Shown: positions 10,564 through 19,558, counted from the first letter of the stretch. The stretch is 64,000 bases of DNA from Clostridia bacterium (GCA_017436645.1 JAFSCR010000023.1:62001-126000); one strand, 5' to 3'. The notes: a model not told the origin generated them from the letters alone. A program made the numbers and translations.

Positions 10564-11221
10564 TATTTTAACGCCGCGCCTTTTAAAGATTGCGGAAATG
10601 GTTCCTGCAGGTTCTAAAGTGATTGATGTCGGCTCTGACCATGCCTATGTACCGATTTATCTTGCTTTGGAAAAGAAGATTCTGTGTGCACTGGCGACGG
10701 ATGTGCATGAAGGACCTTTGCGGCGTGCGACGGAAAACATTTTGTGTTACGGCCTTTCGGATGTGATCGGCACCCGGAAAGCCGATGGGCTTTCGGGCGT
10801 TGATACGACGGGATTTGACACAGTGATTATTGCCGGCATGGGAGGGGTTTTAATTTCGGATATTCTTTCTGCAGCCGGGGAAACAGACGGAAAAACGTTT
10901 ATCTTGCAGCCTATGACGGGTATCAGGGAACTCAGGGAATATCTGACATGTAATAATTATATTATAACTGAAGAAGGAATTGTGCAGGAAGAAGAAAAAC
11001 TGTATACCGTGATAAAGGCCGAAAAAGGGAAGGATATACCGTATACAGAAGCTGAGCTTGTTTTGGGACGAAAAAACAAAAGTGAACCTTTATATCCTTT
11101 GCTTCGTGCACAGATTCTAAAGAAACTTATAAAAAAACTTTCGGGAAAACAAAAGGCGAAAAATCAAGACGCTGATGAGATTCAAGCAATTAAAAATCTG
11201 ATTGAGGAGATGGAAAAATGA
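10556..11221 (+). CDS. trmK: tRNA (adenine(22)-N(1))-methyltransferase TrmK
   Basis: This SAM-dependent enzyme methylates N1 of A22 in tRNA (B. subtilis YqfN family). The 221 residues begin at a TTG inside the last codons of rpoD (eight-base overlap). [16 protein letters not shown] is SAM motif I, and [15 protein letters not shown] is the family's motif IV region. [16 protein letters not shown] follows. Its usual partner nif3 (yqfO) is not next to it but lies at 27441. The stop overlaps the nagA start (ATGA). Confidence 0.9.
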
Positions 11222-12390
11222 CAATTAAAATCATTAACGGTCGAATTATTACCGACAAAGTAGAAACGGACAAAGCTTTGTATATCCGTGACGGGAAGAT
11301 TCTTGATGTTACTGCGGATGATATTGCAGCTGACAAAGTAATTGATGCAGAAAATGCATATGTAAGCCCCGGCTTTGTGGATTTACATACGCATGGTGCT
11401 GGTGGCACAGACTTTATGGACGGAACACCAGAGGATGTTCGTATTGCCCTTCGTGCGCATGCACTCCACGGCACAACTTCTATCATGCCTACCGCTACAA
11501 CAGCAAATCCCGAATCCTTTAGAAAAAGCATTGAAGATATCGGGCTTGTTATGAAGGAGAATGACCCGAACCTTCCTTCCATTCTTGGCGCACATCTGGA
11601 AGGCCCGTATTTTGCTTTGTCGCAGGCAGGAGCACAAGCCCCTGAATTTATTACAGACCCTATTAAAGAAGACTATGAGGCACTCTTACAAGAATATAAA
11701 GGTATTATTAAGCGCTGGAGTTTTGCACCGGAAAGAGACGGTGCGGTTGCGTTTTGTGAAACCCTTATTAAAAACGACGTTGTTCCTTCAATCGGTCACA
11801 CGGATGCAACCTATGCAGAGATTTTGCCTGTATACGAAGCAGGATGCCGCCTTATGACACATTTTTACTCCGGCATGTCCTCACTTACCAGAAAGGGCGG
11901 TTTCCGTGTTCTTGGCGCGGTTGAAACCGGATATCTTCTTGACGATATGTATGTAGAAACTATTGCGGACGGCAAACACCTTCCGCCGGAGCTTCTTCGT
12001 TTGATTTACAAAGTCAAAGGGTCAGATCACATCTGTATGGTTACGGATTCTATGCGTGGCGCAGGTATAGAAGGTTTAAAAGAAATGATTTTAGGTCCCA
12101 TTGCTGATAATCGCATAGCAATAATTGAAGACGGCGTTGCAAAAATGCCCGACAGAACATGTTTTGCCGGCAGTATTGCCACAACCGATCGTCTTGTTCG
12201 TGTTATGCATAAAGAAGCAGGTGTAAATATTGTGGAATCGGTTAAAATGATGACAGAGATTCCGGCTCGTTCGGTTGGTGCAAAGAACATTGGTTCCATC
12301 CGTCCGGGTTATGATGCTGATATTGTTTTGTTTAATGACAATATAGAAATTCAAAAAGTGTTGCTGAAAGGCAAAGAAAGGGAGATTTAA
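11218..12390 (+). CDS. nagA: N-acetylglucosamine-6-phosphate deacetylase
   Basis: This amidohydrolase-superfamily enzyme removes acetate from GlcNAc-6-P during amino-sugar recycling. In its 390 residues, FVDLHTHGAGGTDFMDG is the first metal-site strand, AHLEGPY gives the catalytic-site Glu, and IGHTDATY plus MTHFYSGM supply the His ligands. VTDSMRGAG carries the catalytic Asp. AGSIATTDRLVR and GYDADIVLF are typical C-terminal blocks. No nagB or PTS gene is adjacent. Instead it is translationally coupled to trmK, so it probably serves peptidoglycan amino-sugar recycling as a housekeeping gene; that role is inference. Confidence 0.93.
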   Translation: MTIKIINGRIITDKVETDKALYIRDGKILDVTADDIAADKVIDAENAYVSPGFVDLHTHGAGGTDFMDGTPEDVRIALRAHALHGTTSIMPTATTANPESFRKSIEDIGLVMKENDPNLPSILGAHLEGPYFALSQAGAQAPEFITDPIKEDYEALLQEYKGIIKRWSFAPERDGAVAFCETLIKNDVVPSIGHTDATYAEILPVYEAGCRLMTHFYSGMSSLTRKGGFRVLGAVETGYLLDDMYVETIADGKHLPPELLRLIYKVKGSDHICMVTDSMRGAGIEGLKEMILGPIADNRIAIIEDGVAKMPDRTCFAGSIATTDRLVRVMHKEAGVNIVESVKMMTEIPARSVGAKNIGSIRPGYDADIVLFNDNIEIQKVLLKGKEREI

Positions 12391-12729: not shown

Positions 12730-12789
12730 ATATACGAAACTGTAATATACAAATACTACAACCGATAAAATTTTTTGGGGGTATACATC

Positions 12790-14523
12790 TTGAGATTAAA
12801 TAGAAGAAGGCCTTTTATTATTTTTGCCTGTGTCGGACTTTTAATTGTTATCTTATTAGGTATTTCCGTTGTCCGTGCATACGGAAGTACGAATAAAATC
12901 TGTGCCGGCATTACTGCGGGCGGTGTTTCTATCGGAAATCTTACAACTGAGGAGGCGGCAGAAAAACTTCGTAATCAGCTCGCCAATACAGCTTTCGATA
13001 AACCTATCTATATTGTTTTAGGTGATGTTGAGAAAAAAATAGTCCCCGCAGATTTTCTTGCATCCTTTGAATATGAAAAGACAGCGAAAGCGGCACTGCA
13101 GTATGGTAAAAAAGGAAACTTCTTTTCAAGAATCGGCCAGACGCTTTTGACGGTGTTTAGTAAACGTGATATTCCTATGGAAGTTTCCGTTGATGATCTA
13201 GCATACGAAGAGGCTCTGAATTTCATTATGGACGGTGTTACTGAAAAAGTACAGGAGCACAAATGGGAAATCAGCGACAATAAGCTGATAGTTACTACAG
13301 GTCACCCCGGCCTTTTGCCTGACAAAATGGCTGTTTCTGAGGCTGTTTTAAACACCATTCGCAAAGGAACCTACGATAAAAAGATTGTTTTCGGTTATGA
13401 AGAACGTAAACCTTCTGCACTTTCTGCGGAATACCTTTATGATAAGGTTGCTTCTGAAGCAAAGGATGCTTATTATGCACTGGAAGACGGCAAGGTTGTA
13501 ATTTATGAACATAGCCTTGGTGTGGCGTTTGATAAATCGGTTGCACAGAAAGAAATTGATACACATAAAGGGAATGGGGTTACCTTTGAAATTCCCCTCA
13601 CAATTTCCAGCCCCCGTGTTACAACAGAAGATGTTGAAAGTCAACTTTTTGGTGACACCTTAGGCGAGCATGAAACAAAGTTTAATACAGGAGATGTTGG
13701 CAGAAGCAAAAACATTGCCCTTGCAGCACATAAAATTAATGGCACAATCCTTGCTCCAGGCGAAGTCTTTTCTTATAACGGCGTGGTAGGGGAAAGGAGT
13801 TATAGTGAAGGCTTTGAAACTGCTCATGTTTATGTAAATGGGGAAACGGTAGACGGTGTCGGCGGCGGTATTTGTCAGGTTTCTTCGACGCTTTTCAATG
13901 CAGTTGTTTATGCTAACCTTGAAATTGTAGAAAGAGTAAATCATCAGCTTACGGTTTCATATGTGCCTTTAGGCCGTGATGCAACGGTTGATTATGGTAA
14001 TATTGACTTCCGCTTTAAAAATACAACCGGTCATCCTTTAAAAATTGTTTGCACCGCTGAAAACGGCGTTATGTATACAGGGCTTTTTGGTAAAAAGGAA
14101 GATAAGAGCCTTGAGGTTTCTTTTGAAACCACTGTGATTCGTGAGCTTGATCCGCCGGAACGTAAAAAAGATGATCCCACACTTCCAAAGGGTGAAGAAA
14201 AGGTTGAAAAGCCCGGCTCTTCCGGCTATGTTGTAGACACGTATAAAATTGTAAAAAGAGATGGAAAGGAAACGGAGAGAACATACCTTTGCCGAAGCAC
14301 TTATAATGGTACTTTCCGTGAGATTTTAGTGGGAACAGGGGAAGAAGTTCCTGAAGTGATTCCCGGTGAAGAGAATCCTGAAGAAGGCGGAGAAACGCCT
14401 TCGCCCACAGAATCCTCTGTGCCCACCGAGTCGCCTTCGACTTCTACGCCTAAACCCACACCCTCGGAGGAACCTTCCGAAACAAATGAACCGGATGATG
14501 ACACGTCTGATACAGGTCTCTGA
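12790..14523 (+). CDS. Membrane-anchored VanW-family protein
   Basis: The 577-residue protein starts at a TTG preceded by a G-run ribosome-binding site. Residues about 9-31 form an N-terminal membrane anchor. The outer part has a putative peptidoglycan-binding PG_binding_4-like region (about 45-260) with GVSIGNLTTEEA, then the VanW domain (about 290-430) with NIALAAHKINGTILAPGE and GGGICQVSSTLFNAVVYANL. A short beta region at about 440-510, possibly G5-like, follows, and a Pro/Ser/Thr/Glu-rich tail ends the protein. VanW domains occur in glycopeptide-resistance clusters and many clostridial envelope proteins, but their activity is not settled. No van genes accompany it, so a cell-wall role is likelier than resistance. 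It is followed closely by another exported protein. Confidence 0.9.
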   Translation: MRLNRRRPFIIFACVGLLIVILLGISVVRAYGSTNKICAGITAGGVSIGNLTTEEAAEKLRNQLANTAFDKPIYIVLGDVEKKIVPADFLASFEYEKTAKAALQYGKKGNFFSRIGQTLLTVFSKRDIPMEVSVDDLAYEEALNFIMDGVTEKVQEHKWEISDNKLIVTTGHPGLLPDKMAVSEAVLNTIRKGTYDKKIVFGYEERKPSALSAEYLYDKVASEAKDAYYALEDGKVVIYEHSLGVAFDKSVAQKEIDTHKGNGVTFEIPLTISSPRVTTEDVESQLFGDTLGEHETKFNTGDVGRSKNIALAAHKINGTILAPGEVFSYNGVVGERSYSEGFETAHVYVNGETVDGVGGGICQVSSTLFNAVVYANLEIVERVNHQLTVSYVPLGRDATVDYGNIDFRFKNTTGHPLKIVCTAENGVMYTGLFGKKEDKSLEVSFETTVIRELDPPERKKDDPTLPKGEEKVEKPGSSGYVVDTYKIVKRDGKETERTYLCRSTYNGTFREILVGTGEEVPEVIPGEENPEEGGETPSPTESSVPTESPSTSTPKPTPSEEPSETNEPDDDTSDTGL

Positions 14524-15466: not shown

Positions 15467-15506
15467 AACACACCAATGACTTTTTCTCGTTGGTGTGTTA
15501 TTTTAT
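15467..15506 (+). terminator. Strong hairpin terminator before the four-gene cassette
   Basis: AACACACCAA (15467-15476) pairs perfectly with TTGGTGTGTT (15490-15499) and is followed by ATTTTATAATT. It should end the vanW unit. Its T-tract also contains a TATAAT that may serve the next operon. Confidence 0.85.
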
Positions 15507-15535: not shown

Positions 15536-16318
15536 ATGAAATTAAAAGATAAACTTTGGCTGTGGGGTCAGACGGAAGGTTCTCACCATATAGACGATGC
15601 ATTTGGTCTTCCTGCAAAGAGTCGCATGTCTCCTATGGAAGGGGCATATTATTTCGGCATCAAAAATATGTGTCGTGTTGTTATGCGCGGACTTCCTGCT
15701 CTTCCTTTCGATCAGGACGCCATGGTTCTTGACACGATGGATAATGTTGTCTGGTCCATTGTGGGGGACAGCTCCTGCGGCCTCGTGGATTATACAAGAG
15801 AAATTGCCCGTCTTGCAAAGATTTACACGAATATTTCCGGGGCAATAATGGACGATGTTTTCAGAGATAGCCGTCTTGCACATTTTACGCCCGAAGTTAT
15901 TTCGGGTTACAAAAAGACCCTCAAGGAAAGAGCCGGAAGAGAGCTCCCTGTCTGGGCTGTTGTATATACAAATGAACTTCTCGAAAATCGTAGGCCATAC
16001 CTTGCTGCTTGTGACACTTTGGTGATGTGGACATGGAAGTCTGAAGATCTTGTAAAGCTCGAAGACAATCTTGCAAAGCTTAAAGCATTGGCCCCGGACA
16101 AAAAGATTTATGTCGGCTGTTATATGTGGGACTATGGTAACAAATGTGAAATGTCTGAGGAGAAGATGCAACTTCAGCTTGATACATACTATAAATGGCT
16201 TAAAGAAGAAAAGGTTGAAGGCATCGTTTTTGGTTCCAACTGCTGTGCTGACCTCGGCCTTAAAGCTTCCGACATGGTTCGTGACTTTGTTCGCATCCAT
16301 GGCGATGAAGAAATTTGA
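15536..16318 (+). CDS. Uncharacterised protein, paralogue A of the cassette (possible TIM-barrel enzyme)
   Basis: I do not recognise the family. The 260-residue soluble protein has no signal peptide or membrane segment. It is about half identical to the gene at 17381, with near-complete identity in WLWGQ, GSHH, EGAYYFGI, NMCRVVM, LPFDQDAMV, RRPYLA, GCYMWDY, the SNC-ADLGL region and a C-terminal HGDEEI. Strand-like segments end in polar pairs: AIMDD (Asp106-Asp107), VVYTNE, VMWTW, YVGCYMWDY and IVFGSNC. This is the rhythm of a TIM barrel, so a hydrolase or isomerase is a guess. GAAAGGAG precedes the ATG. It is followed by a phosphotriesterase-family gene after 12 bases. Confidence 0.6.
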   Translation: MKLKDKLWLWGQTEGSHHIDDAFGLPAKSRMSPMEGAYYFGIKNMCRVVMRGLPALPFDQDAMVLDTMDNVVWSIVGDSSCGLVDYTREIARLAKIYTNISGAIMDDVFRDSRLAHFTPEVISGYKKTLKERAGRELPVWAVVYTNELLENRRPYLAACDTLVMWTWKSEDLVKLEDNLAKLKALAPDKKIYVGCYMWDYGNKCEMSEEKMQLQLDTYYKWLKEEKVEGIVFGSNCCADLGLKASDMVRDFVRIHGDEEI

Positions 16319-16330
16319 GGAGGAATACAG

Positions 16331-17368
16331 ATGATTCAAACTGTTCTTGGCCAGATTCGAAAAGAGGATGTTGGGATTACCACAACACATGAACATATAT
16401 TTATTGACCTTACCGGTTTTTTTGCAGAACATCCTGTTCGAGGAATTGATGATCCTGCAACAGCAAAAGTAGCTATGGAAAACCTGGGCATTTTAAATCG
16501 TGACCCTTATGCACTGAAAGATAACTTGCTTATGATGGACCCTAAGGTGCAGAAAAAGGAACTTATGCACTTTAAAAATGCAGGAGGCAGGACGGTCGTA
16601 GATGCCACCACCATCGGCATTCACCGTAGTCCGCTTCTTTTAAAACAGATGGCAATAGAATGTGGGCTAAATGTTATTGCGGGCGCAGGCTATTATGTTG
16701 GAGGGACACATTCGGAAGCGGTGCGAAACATGAGTGCTGATGGCCTTTGTGACAAAATGGTTGAAGACCTCACCAAGGGGATGGATGGAACAGACATAAA
16801 GGCAGGTATAATCGGTGAAATTGGTATAAGCGAGATTTTTGACGATTCGGAACGTAATGTCCTTCGTGGCGCTGCCCGTGCCCAGAAGAAAACAGGGGCG
16901 CCGCTTATGATTCACATAAATCCATGGACTACAAACGGCCTGGAAGCTGCATCTATTGTGTTTTCCGAAGGTGTTTCTCCAGATAGAGTTGCAATTTGCC
17001 ACATAGACGTTGAAAATCGTGAAGATTACATTTTCCGTCTTCTCGACATGGGGCTTTATGTGGAGTTTGATAATTTCGGCAAAGAATATTATGTAGACAG
17101 GGATGTTCGAAATTCCGGTTACGGCCTTTTTGTCCGTGATACGGACAGAGTACGTCTTCTTAAGAAAATGATTGACAGTGGCTATAAAAAACAGATTCTT
17201 TTAAGCTGTGACGTATGCCTTAAAACTTGTCTTCACACCTATGGCGGCTGGGGATATGACCATTTGCTTACAAATGTTGTTCCCATGATGGATGAAGAAG
17301 GTATTTCCATGCAGGATATCAATGATATTCTAGTTAAAAATGCAGGGGAATATTTAGACTGGAAATAA
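16331..17368 (+). CDS. Phosphotriesterase-family metal-dependent hydrolase
   Basis: This 345-residue protein belongs to the phosphotriesterase branch of the amidohydrolase superfamily (COG1735). The binuclear-site residues are all visible: His20 and His22 in TTTHEHIF, Glu163 in GIIGEIG (the bridging position, Lys in phosphotriesterase itself, Glu in several relatives), His195 in MIHINPW, His224 in ICHIDVEN and Asp294 in LLSCDV. TYGGWGYDHLLTNVVPMM is the typical C-terminal block. Relatives hydrolyse phosphotriesters, lactones or sugar lactones, so the substrate is open. It lies between the two paralogues and shares their operon (gaps of 12 bases). Confidence 0.88.
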   Translation: MIQTVLGQIRKEDVGITTTHEHIFIDLTGFFAEHPVRGIDDPATAKVAMENLGILNRDPYALKDNLLMMDPKVQKKELMHFKNAGGRTVVDATTIGIHRSPLLLKQMAIECGLNVIAGAGYYVGGTHSEAVRNMSADGLCDKMVEDLTKGMDGTDIKAGIIGEIGISEIFDDSERNVLRGAARAQKKTGAPLMIHINPWTTNGLEAASIVFSEGVSPDRVAICHIDVENREDYIFRLLDMGLYVEFDNFGKEYYVDRDVRNSGYGLFVRDTDRVRLLKKMIDSGYKKQILLSCDVCLKTCLHTYGGWGYDHLLTNVVPMMDEEGISMQDINDILVKNAGEYLDWK

Positions 17369-17380
17369 GGAGAGATGAAA

Positions 17381-18178
17381 ATGAAATTACGTGATAAATT
17401 TTGGCTTTGGGGGCAGGACGCTGGTTCCCACCACACACCGGGAAATACCTTTAAGCTTCCCGGCAGAAGTCGTATGACGCCTCTTGAAGGCGCATATTAT
17501 TTCGGTATTCCCAATATGTGCCGTGTTGTTATGGTTGGTAAACCCGAACTTCCCTTCGATCAGGATGCCATGGTTTATGACACCATGCAGAACGTAGCCT
17601 GGTCTATTATTGGTGACGGCAGCAGCGGCAGCGTGGAATATATTGACGAAGTTTTGAAACAGGCGAGAAAATACCCCAATATTATGGCAGGCATTTTAGA
17701 TGACTTTTTAAGCGAAGGCAGAATGAAGATTTTCACGCCTGAAAGAGTCCGCGGCTACAGAGAACGCCTTCATAATGAACTGGACAGGAAGTTGGAACTT
17801 TGGACGGTTGTATATTCCTCTGAGCTTACCGAAGAAAGAAGACCCTATCTTGCAGAATGTGATGTTTTAACTCTCTGGCCACGTTTTGAAAGGGATGTTC
17901 TGACTCTGGAAGAAGATTTCGCAAAACTTTATGACCTTTCCGACGGCAAGAAGAAAATCATGGCAGGGTGTTATATGTGGGATTACCACGACAAAAATGC
18001 CGTTTCCGTTTCTCTCATGGAAATGAAACTGGAACAGTACAGAAAATGGCTTCACGAAGGCTATATTGAAGGCATCATTTTCTGTTCAAACTGCATTGCA
18101 GATTTAGGACTTGCTGCAGTTGACTATACTCGTGAATGGATTCGTCAGCATGGCGACGAAGAAATCATTGAGAAATAA
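17381..18178 (+). CDS. Uncharacterised protein, paralogue B of the cassette (possible TIM-barrel enzyme)
   Basis: This 265-residue protein is clearly a paralogue of the gene at 15536, sharing WLWGQDAGSHH-type, EGAYYFGI, NMCRVVM, LPFDQDAMV, AGCYMWDY and HGDEEI segments. I chose the ATG at 17381 because AAGGAGAG lies about seven bases upstream; the ATG at 17375 abuts that site. It shares the Asp-Asp pair (ILDD) after the central strand and the hydrophobic-strand rhythm of a TIM barrel. Conservation is highest in the first 80 residues and the last 80, suggesting a shared active site with diverged substrate contacts. The family is unknown to me. Confidence 0.6.
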   Translation: MKLRDKFWLWGQDAGSHHTPGNTFKLPGRSRMTPLEGAYYFGIPNMCRVVMVGKPELPFDQDAMVYDTMQNVAWSIIGDGSSGSVEYIDEVLKQARKYPNIMAGILDDFLSEGRMKIFTPERVRGYRERLHNELDRKLELWTVVYSSELTEERRPYLAECDVLTLWPRFERDVLTLEEDFAKLYDLSDGKKKIMAGCYMWDYHDKNAVSVSLMEMKLEQYRKWLHEGYIEGIIFCSNCIADLGLAAVDYTREWIRQHGDEEIIEK

Positions 18179-18193
18179 CAGGAGGTACATGAT

Positions 18194-19357
18194 ATGGGTT
18201 TTATTCCCGATATAGAATTTAAGGAACGTATTACAAAACTTCAGGCCATCATGGCAAAAGAGGGCTATGATATTATGATGGCTTACGGCAACGAAGCAGA
18301 ACCCCAGTTTGTCCGTTATCTATCCGATTACTGGCCGTCTTTTGAAACAGCAGGTGTTCTGGTACCCGTCGAGGGCGAACCGCTTCTTTTAATTGGACCT
18401 GAAAGCTACACTTATGCCGCCGATCGCTCCAGAATCCCCGAAATTCGTCTTCTGAAAGCATTTCGTGAATCTTCTGAACCGGAATACCCCGGCAAAAAAC
18501 TTTCCACATTCAACGAGGTTTTTGACGAAGTGCTGAAAGGAAGAAAGTTTACAAAGTTTGGTGTGGCAGGGCTTCCGCTTGTAACCATCGGTGTTTATGA
18601 TGCATTGAAAGAGGCGCTTGGTGACATACCTATTGTAAAGGCGGACGATCTTGTTTCTCAGCTCCGCATGATTAAAACGGAAAATGAGCTTGTTTGTATG
18701 CGTGAAGCGGCTGAAATTACGAGAAAATCTTTTGACTATGTTCTCGAAAATATCCGCCCCGGAATGACGGAAACACAAGTTGTTGGACTTGCACTTTCCA
18801 AAATGCACGAACTCGGCGCAGAACGTGAAAGCTATCCGCACTGGGTACTTACGGGCGAAGGGAGTAATCAGGCAATCAGCCGTCCTCGTCAAAAAGTAAT
18901 TCGGCCCGGTGATATGACCATGATTCAGATTGGTGCCCGTGTTGCAGGTTATGCATCTTCCATTGGTCGTCCCGTTGTTTTCGGGAAGGCAACGGCTGAG
19001 CAGAAAGCAATTATTGAAGCAGGGTATGTAGGGCAGAACGCTGTTCTTGGATTTATGAAGGCAGGACTTTGCGCGGGGGATGTTGCCCGTCACTATGAAA
19101 AGGTTCTTTCCGACATCGGCTTTGGTGACCATCTTCTTTATGGCCCTTGCCACGGTAACGGCATGATGGAAGGAGAGGCACCGTGGATTGAAAATAATTC
19201 CACATGGATTCTTAAAGAAAACATGACGTTCTGCCTTGACGTTTTCCTGGGAAATAATAAGACGAAGACAGGCCTTCGCATGGAAGATGTTATCCGCATT
19301 ACAAAAGACGGCACAGAAAATCTGACCCACTATCCGCAAAAACTTTTTGAACTTTAA
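18194..19357 (+). CDS. Creatinase/M24-fold protein lacking most metal ligands
   Basis: The 387 residues show a creatinase-type N-terminal domain (about 1-155) and a pita-bread M24 domain (about 160-380). The usual five metal ligands Asp-Asp-His-Glu-Glu appear as Gln245 (MIQIGA), Ser256 (ASSIGR), His320 (PCHGNG), Asp349 (FCLDVF) and Glu364 (LRMEDV). The second His of the HGxGxxxHE pattern is Gly327. Metal-dependent aminopeptidase P or prolidase activity is therefore unlikely. Creatinase itself has this fold without metals, so C-N hydrolysis of a small molecule is a reasonable inference. It is the last gene of the cassette, 15 bases after paralogue B, with AGGAGG upstream. Confidence 0.82.
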   Translation: MGFIPDIEFKERITKLQAIMAKEGYDIMMAYGNEAEPQFVRYLSDYWPSFETAGVLVPVEGEPLLLIGPESYTYAADRSRIPEIRLLKAFRESSEPEYPGKKLSTFNEVFDEVLKGRKFTKFGVAGLPLVTIGVYDALKEALGDIPIVKADDLVSQLRMIKTENELVCMREAAEITRKSFDYVLENIRPGMTETQVVGLALSKMHELGAERESYPHWVLTGEGSNQAISRPRQKVIRPGDMTMIQIGARVAGYASSIGRPVVFGKATAEQKAIIEAGYVGQNAVLGFMKAGLCAGDVARHYEKVLSDIGFGDHLLYGPCHGNGMMEGEAPWIENNSTWILKENMTFCLDVFLGNNKTKTGLRMEDVIRITKDGTENLTHYPQKLFEL

Positions 19358-19400: not shown

Positions 19401-19429
19401 TTGACAAAACAAGTGATGTGTGTTATTAT
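19401..19429 (+). promoter_or_regulatory. infC: Sigma-A promoter of infC-rpmI-rplT
   Basis: A consensus TTGACA (19401-19406), a 17-base spacer and TATTAT (19424-19429). One of the strongest promoters in the window, as expected for translation genes. Confidence 0.9.
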
Positions 19430-19435
19430 ACTCGA

Positions 19436-19558
19436 GTAGCAAGCAGGGCAACGCCCTCACCGTATCGTCTTGATACGCATACGGTTGATATTTTTACCGG
19501 TTTATAAGGCGGTATTGCTTGCGCAATGCCGCTTTAATTTTTTTTGGAGGTGCTGTAT
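19436..19558 (+). promoter_or_regulatory. Structured 5' leader of infC (L20-leader-like)
   Basis: The roughly 120-base untranslated leader contains a small hairpin AGGGC/GCCCT (about 19446-19458). A longer helix has ACCGTAT (from about 19460) pairing with ATACGGT (ending near 19486). A terminator hairpin follows at 19506-19535. In Bacillus, L20 binds an equivalent leader and causes premature termination of infC-rpmI-rplT. The gene order and hairpin position here fit the same autogenous control. I have not matched it to a covariance model. Confidence 0.7.
19506..19545 (+). terminator. Attenuator terminator in the infC leader
   Basis: A 13-pair stem (19506-19518 with 19523-19535, two G-T pairs) with a four-base loop TTGC, followed by AATTTTTTTT. 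The T-run ends directly at the infC ribosome-binding site, the geometry of a conditional terminator. Confidence 0.85.

Follow-up and report, generated by a model that had tools for sequence, protein, structure and literature searches.

A four-gene cassette of a Clostridia bacterium joining two predicted TIM-barrel paralogues, a phosphotriesterase-family hydrolase and a metal-stripped M24 protein

Among proteins of the M24 (pita-bread) fold, DoeA is similar to creatinase and works with the deacetylase DoeB in ectoine degradation (PMC3187862). The mammalian phosphotriesterase (PTE) relative PTER is an amidohydrolase in which E169 is the bridging residue and R204, R233 and H300 make up the N-acetyltaurine site (PMC11374699), and the ASRT proteins (PF07100) have been proposed to be intracellular allosteric sugar sensors or sugar binders (PMC2739507). 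In the open-licence papers searched, a set that leaves most subscription journals outside, none was found that joins ASRT with M24 or PTE proteins. The locus described here brings relatives of these proteins together.

The window is a stretch of 64,000 nucleotides from a Clostridia bacterium, and four co-directional genes fill positions 15536-19357 of its + strand. These genes, their borders and one upstream gene are as follows.

11218..12390, + strand: nagA (GlcNAc-6-phosphate deacetylase); TIGR00221 234.3 bits, cut-off 225.65
15467..15499, + strand: terminator-like hairpin (13 pairs, T-rich tail) that closes the preceding unit; upstream border of the cassette
15536..16318, + strand: TIM-barrel paralogue 1 (TIMX-P1), 260 aa; no Pfam family above cut-off; keeps the Asp-Asp pair
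16331..17368, + strand: PTE-family hydrolase, 345 aa; PF02126 E 1.2e-72; bridging-Glu subgroup
17375..18178, + strand: TIM-barrel paralogue 2 (TIMX-P2), 267 aa; 55% identity to P1; keeps the Asp-Asp pair
18194..19357, + strand: metal-stripped M24 (pita-bread) protein, 387 aa; Peptidase_M24 (PF00557 E 3.5e-36) and Creatinase_N
19401..19429, + strand: sigma-70-like infC promoter (11/12 consensus bases); downstream border of the cassette

The intergenic gaps are 12, 6 and 15 bases, the middle one becoming 12 if translation of the third gene starts at its second in-frame ATG, and AGGAG-type sites precede every start codon. No terminator-like site is listed on the + strand between the last stop codon of the cassette and the infC promoter. 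A preliminary description had proposed a one-strand cassette with good ribosome-binding sites, bordered by a terminator and the infC promoter and made up of a phosphotriesterase-family hydrolase, a "metal-stripped" M24 protein and two paralogues of no recognised family, and all of this was found. All four genes are maintained by purifying selection, because pN (0.09-0.22) is far below pS (0.73-0.83) in comparison with the same-genus orthologs at L032, which stand in the same order.

The flanks of the cassette have features of their own. In the infC leader (19401-19544), the strong sigma-70-like promoter is followed by an attenuator-like 14-pair hairpin with a T-run, which stops 8 bases 5' of the listed infC ORF; an Rfam search of the 64-kb window, this leader included, returned no family at gathering score. 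Upstream, a gene for a VanW/G5/peptidoglycan-binding protein (12775-14523) is syntenic within the genus. The nagA gene lies 3.1 kb upstream of the cassette on the same strand, a synteny kept in two same-genus genomes, and a functional link between nagA and the cassette is possible.

TIMX-P1 and TIMX-P2 are 55% identical across 262 aligned residues (E 2e-107). Neither has a Pfam match above cut-off or an NCBIfam match of any weight, and a PDB sequence search with TIMX-P1, the one paralogue queried, gave no match. An alignment of 46 members gave nothing below E 0.1 against PDB profiles and only scattered weak matches against Pfam, so that by sequence TIMX is a family described in none of the libraries searched. 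The AlphaFold model of P2, built on an alignment, is a TIM barrel with a pLDDT of 93.9, for which Foldseek found generic TIM barrels only, with glycoside hydrolases among the best; the lowest E (5.6e-6) belongs to a GH17 enzyme, and the top TM-score among the matches listed (0.63) to 4h41. Two more specific identities were considered and rejected: homology of a GH84-like kind, suggested by the GH84 FDD motif and a weak GH85 match (19.8 bits), gave no significant profile match, with only 1 of the 46 members matching GH85, and membership of DUF4434, suggested by 4h41 as the closest structure, gave a non-significant profile E of 0.06.

Active sites of TIM barrels lie where the strands end on their C-terminal side, and residues that at least 85% of TIMX members conserve are enriched there (16/33 vs 64/267, p 9e-4). 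An Asp109-Asp110 pair after strand 4 is invariant in all 46 aligned homologues. As regards glycoside hydrolase membership, the TIM barrel and the invariant acidic pair are seen together with no family match; from the fold and the gene context, TIMX may act on the sugar part of a substrate, probably as an acid-base, glycosidase-like enzyme. TIMX-P2 carries non-consensus residues at three positions that are highly conserved in the family (W170R, G205H and Q218K) and TIMX-P1 at three others, and this deviation at different positions suggests divided roles. In the tree, the two paralogues fall in sister groups older than the split between the window and L032. Two tandem copies in other genomes (L040:2588-3361 and L037:9147-10004) lack the Asp-Asp motif, each beside an intact copy, and may be pseudoenzyme partners. 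A separate Acidobacteriota member (L061:9842-10804) has a twin-arginine-like N-terminus, from which some TIMX relatives may be exported.

The M24 protein was compared with E. coli aminopeptidase P, whose metal ligands served as the reference (PMC5774706). At the five ligand positions of the metallopeptidases (D, D, H, E, E) it carries Q245, S256, H320, D349 and E364: His320 and Glu364 are kept, and D260, D271 and E383 of the reference are replaced by Q245, S256 and D349. The relay histidines of the E. coli enzyme (H243, H350 and H361) are likewise replaced, by S229, Y316 and G327. Both aspartate ligands are lost in 23 of 23 ASRT- or TIMX-linked M24 proteins aligned with two prolidases, and in 22 of 22 in a second alignment; the other two M24 proteins of the window's genome, which are housekeeping proteins, keep all metal ligands. 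The AlphaFold model (pLDDT 93.1) places the protein in the pita-bread fold superfamily, matching prolidases most closely (TM to target about 0.9, up to 0.92), followed by creatinase and DoeA (0.80-0.83); by sequence and modelled fold it is closer to prolidases than to either of these. A protein without these metal ligands and relay histidines could also be non-catalytic. However, H320, E326, E328, D349, R362 and E364 are invariant in all 22 members of the second alignment, a constancy that speaks for an active site.

The cassette PTE has the PF02126 domain and a complete two-metal site (H20, H22, E163, H195, H224 and D294), a ligand set kept in 9 of 9 cassette- or ASRT-linked PTEs. Its closest solved structure is 3k2g, and its bridging glutamate (E163) replaces the carboxylated lysine as E169 does in PTER, so that it belongs to the same bridging-Glu subgroup. 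Unlike in PTER, the positions of R204, R233 and H300 are taken by P198, V227 and C293, as read from an alignment with a PTE-related protein in which positions were transferred at a fixed distance from the metal ligands. The PTER substrate residues are absent from the cassette PTE, which points to a different substrate, and N-acetyltaurine hydrolysis was rejected.

A genome scan for TIMX found 43 loci in 37 genomes from nine or so phyla, a breadth that is a lower bound since the two motif patterns used favour close relatives; the hosts include Clostridia metagenome-assembled genomes (MAGs), Lentisphaerota, Latescibacterota, Omnitrophota, Armatimonadota, Acidobacteriota, Poribacteria, Zixibacteria and others. 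The relatives are MAGs in nearly every case, and their contigs are often short. In profile searches of 46 TIMX neighbourhoods, M24 was present in 12, ASRT in 10, PTE in 8 and Amidohydro_2 in 5; M24 of the cassette type is absent from the stretch covered in 34 of 46 TIMX loci outside the window, an absence that comes partly from short contigs. In 12 of the 37 other TIMX genomes, cassette-type M24 lies no more than 10 kb from TIMX, whereas among 397 other sampled genomes of the phylum a single one has it anywhere (Fisher p 3e-13, uncorrected for phylogeny); with the window's own genome included, the count for the phylum is 2 of 398 at E at most 1e-60. Among the 60 nearest genomes, this type of M24 is found in 7 of 9 with TIMX, one of these nine TIMX matches being a 48-residue contig-edge fragment, vs 4 of 51 without (p 3e-5, uncorrected for shared ancestry). 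ASRT is present in 7 of 7 TIMX genomes tested vs 12 of 298 others (p 1e-9, again with shared ancestry uncorrected); in two of the seven (G029 and G037) it is of a high-scoring type that adjoins a sugar-kinase-like gene, with no M24.

A stronger argument than these p-values is that the linkage occurs in two phyla with two different metallo-hydrolases. In 11 of 12 loci exactly one of PTE and Amidohydro_2 accompanies M24 (the exception is L041), and never both; the partner is PTE in Clostridia and Amidohydro_2 in Lentisphaerota, usually with ASRT as well. The gene orders are as follows.

Window and L032: P1-PTE-P2-M24
L033/L073 (contig tips overlap almost exactly): P1-PTE-M24
L040: PTE-M24-TIMX-TIMX
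L036: M24-PTE-TIMX-ASRT
L048: TIMX-ASRT-PTE-M24
L050: TIMX-TIMX-ASRT-PTE-M24
L047 (first three reading frames overlap by 4 bases): M24-Amidohydro_2-ASRT-TIMX-TIMX

Co-occurrence is conserved, and the exact gene order is kept within the genus only. The recurrence of the gene set rejects the idea of chance neighbours. TIMX relatives were found neither on viral contigs nor on plasmids.

The window's genome has a single ASRT gene (C21:24954), which lies on another contig than the cassette and directly downstream of a second M24 gene. The product of the latter is 39% identical to the cassette M24 and is also stripped of its metal ligands, and the row at this place (L076:7602-10310, on contig C21 of G000, the window's own genome) consists of an M19 dipeptidase, the second M24 and ASRT. 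The M24-ASRT pair recurs at ASRT loci of related genomes, where no other pair around ASRT is found as often and where the hydrolases close by vary: polysaccharide deacetylase (L089), M81/MlrC (L096) and M19 (L076). Creatininase-family genes are found near related M24s at L097, L134, L161, L163 and L164, of which L163 and L164 have no local ASRT. The window cassette and L159 have M24 with PTE and likewise no local ASRT. Plasmid-borne ASRT genes stand in other sugar contexts with no M24 partner, and are uninformative for the cassette.

Neighbouring genes in relatives, called with custom ORF scripts, include galT/galK, GH78, GH43, GHL6/GH42, xylose-isomerase-like and enolase-superfamily genes, and further ones are a ROK kinase, DUF4432 and a ribose-type binding protein. 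At L049:10007-14305, a TIMX gene lies directly 5' of galT, a metallophosphatase gene and a galactokinase gene. The cluster at L164:566-6768 runs DUF4432, stripped M24, creatininase family, a second DUF4432-like gene, nagB-like gene and nagA. In one genome (G348), cassette-type M24 adjoins a creatininase-family gene and ABC genes of the ribose type (L134 and L142, where some identities, the LacI- and ABC-type ones, were read from sequence) and, at another place, a polysaccharide deacetylase, an FGGY kinase and zinc dehydrogenases (L147). In genomes other than the window's, LacI- or AraC-type regulators and ribose-type periplasmic-binding/ABC genes thus adjoin the same M24 subfamily.

These neighbourhoods bear on the preliminary description, which had read the locus as a dedicated pathway that degrades or modifies a small molecule, perhaps derived from a sugar or an amino acid, and suggested to be an internal metabolite. 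The dedicated pathway is supported: that the genes belong together is borne out by linkage recurring in Clostridia and Lentisphaerota, and the sugar-type setting by the sugar genes of relatives. The description would have dropped the idea of an undescribed system had the genes rarely co-occurred in other genomes or the paralogues belonged to a well-described enzyme family; in fact the genes co-occur in other genomes, with an order that does not extend beyond the genus, and the paralogues fall in no family described in the libraries searched. The internal metabolite is not upheld: M24 lies near importers and regulators in relatives, and uptake is therefore at least as likely. The description had also missed ASRT as the usual fifth partner, the exchange of PTE for Amidohydro_2 and the second stripped M24 beside ASRT.

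Our leading interpretation, a tentative one that comes close to an even chance, is that the cassette encodes cytosolic enzymes of a catabolic branch whose substrate is sugar-derived and contains a C-N bond (amide, amidine or N-acyl). A metallo-hydrolase would break one bond of this substrate, either C-N or C-O, the slot being taken by PTE in the window, by Amidohydro_2 in Lentisphaerota and, near related M24s, by proteins of the creatininase family or polysaccharide deacetylases. The M24 protein would hydrolyse another C-N bond without metal, like creatinase and the ectoine hydrolase DoeA; the TIMX barrels would work on the sugar part, and ASRT, encoded elsewhere in the window's genome, would bind a sugar ligand. 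The substrate would be of a sugar type, probably an amino-sugar type. Against this reading weigh the closeness of the M24 protein to prolidases, the occurrence of lactonases and esterases among PTE proteins, and the majority of TIMX loci in which no such M24 was seen in the stretch covered. The broader proposal, which is plausible but more doubtful, is of an undescribed module of gut Clostridia and Lentisphaerota with a core of metal-free M24 and ASRT, a swappable metallo-amidohydrolase slot, a new TIMX family with an Asp-Asp catalytic pair and an amino-sugar derivative as substrate.

It is also conceivable, although unlikely, that the genes serve sugar oxidation, with dehydrogenases forming a sugar or cyclitol lactone that PTE or Amidohydro_2 opens, TIMX isomerising or cleaving the product and M24 in a side role. 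The PTE and Amidohydro_2 superfamilies both contain sugar lactonases, which would explain the exchange of one for the other. Gfo/Idh-type and zinc dehydrogenases do occur near several loci, but they lie outside the cassette and are not constant. The PTE is partly similar to phospho-furanose lactonase (79.5 bits, cut-off 630), and IolN is partly matched by the creatininase-like partners (50-68 bits, cut-off 245), yet these scores are far under the cut-offs, and M24, the most constant partner, is left unexplained.

Rather improbable is a reading in which M24 joins ASRT in a complex without catalytic activity, a sensor or scaffold through which a sugar ligand tunes the linked hydrolases. It would accord with the missing metal ligands and relay histidines, with the sensor role proposed for ASRT (PMC2739507) and with the recurrence of the M24-ASRT pair; against it stand the constant H/E/E/D/R/E set of M24 and the retention of M24 and PTE without local ASRT in the window cassette and L159. 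That these are ordinary peptide or amino-acid salvage genes (a prolidase and an amidohydrolase) together by chance is very improbable, for all that M24 is nearest to prolidases and an M19 dipeptidase gene lies upstream of the second stripped M24 gene, since the metal site is destroyed and the linkage recurs in two phyla with sugar genes as neighbours.

For the catabolic branch that we favour, the identification of one substrate would give functions to TIMX, to ASRT outside rhodopsin-bearing cells and to the stripped M24 proteins, and would point to a sugar-derived compound degraded by herbivore gut bacteria. Annotation pipelines are likely to label such M24 proteins Xaa-Pro peptidases despite the lost metal site.

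Among known systems, the ASRT (ASRAH) operons of 2009 share an intracellular ASRT beside sugar genes, but the neighbourhoods given in the text (isomerase-aldolase-kinase, ABC, amylase and others) are without M24, PTE or TIMX (PMC2739507). TIM-barrel glycoside hydrolases (GH17, GH85, GH18-like; BT_0435) share with TIMX the fold and an acidic pair where strand 4 ends, whereas neither sequence nor profile comparison tied TIMX to Pfam families, GH84 or DUF4434. With creatinase the cassette M24 shares the pita-bread fold (1chm profile E 1.2e-32; 1kp0 TM 0.83), although the identity is 17% and the His243-equivalent base is a serine; creatininase-family genes stand beside or near related M24s (at the five loci given above), but these creatininase-like partners score under cut-off with creatininase models and have a sugar context. 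In the DoeA/DoeB pair, too, a single catabolic operon brings together an M24-fold C-N hydrolase and another hydrolase (PMC3187862). The cassette M24 scores far under the cut-off of the DoeA equivalog model (75.4 bits, cut-off 613) and, unlike DoeA, has PTE or Amidohydro_2 as its hydrolase partner, with TIMX and ASRT as additional members of the set.
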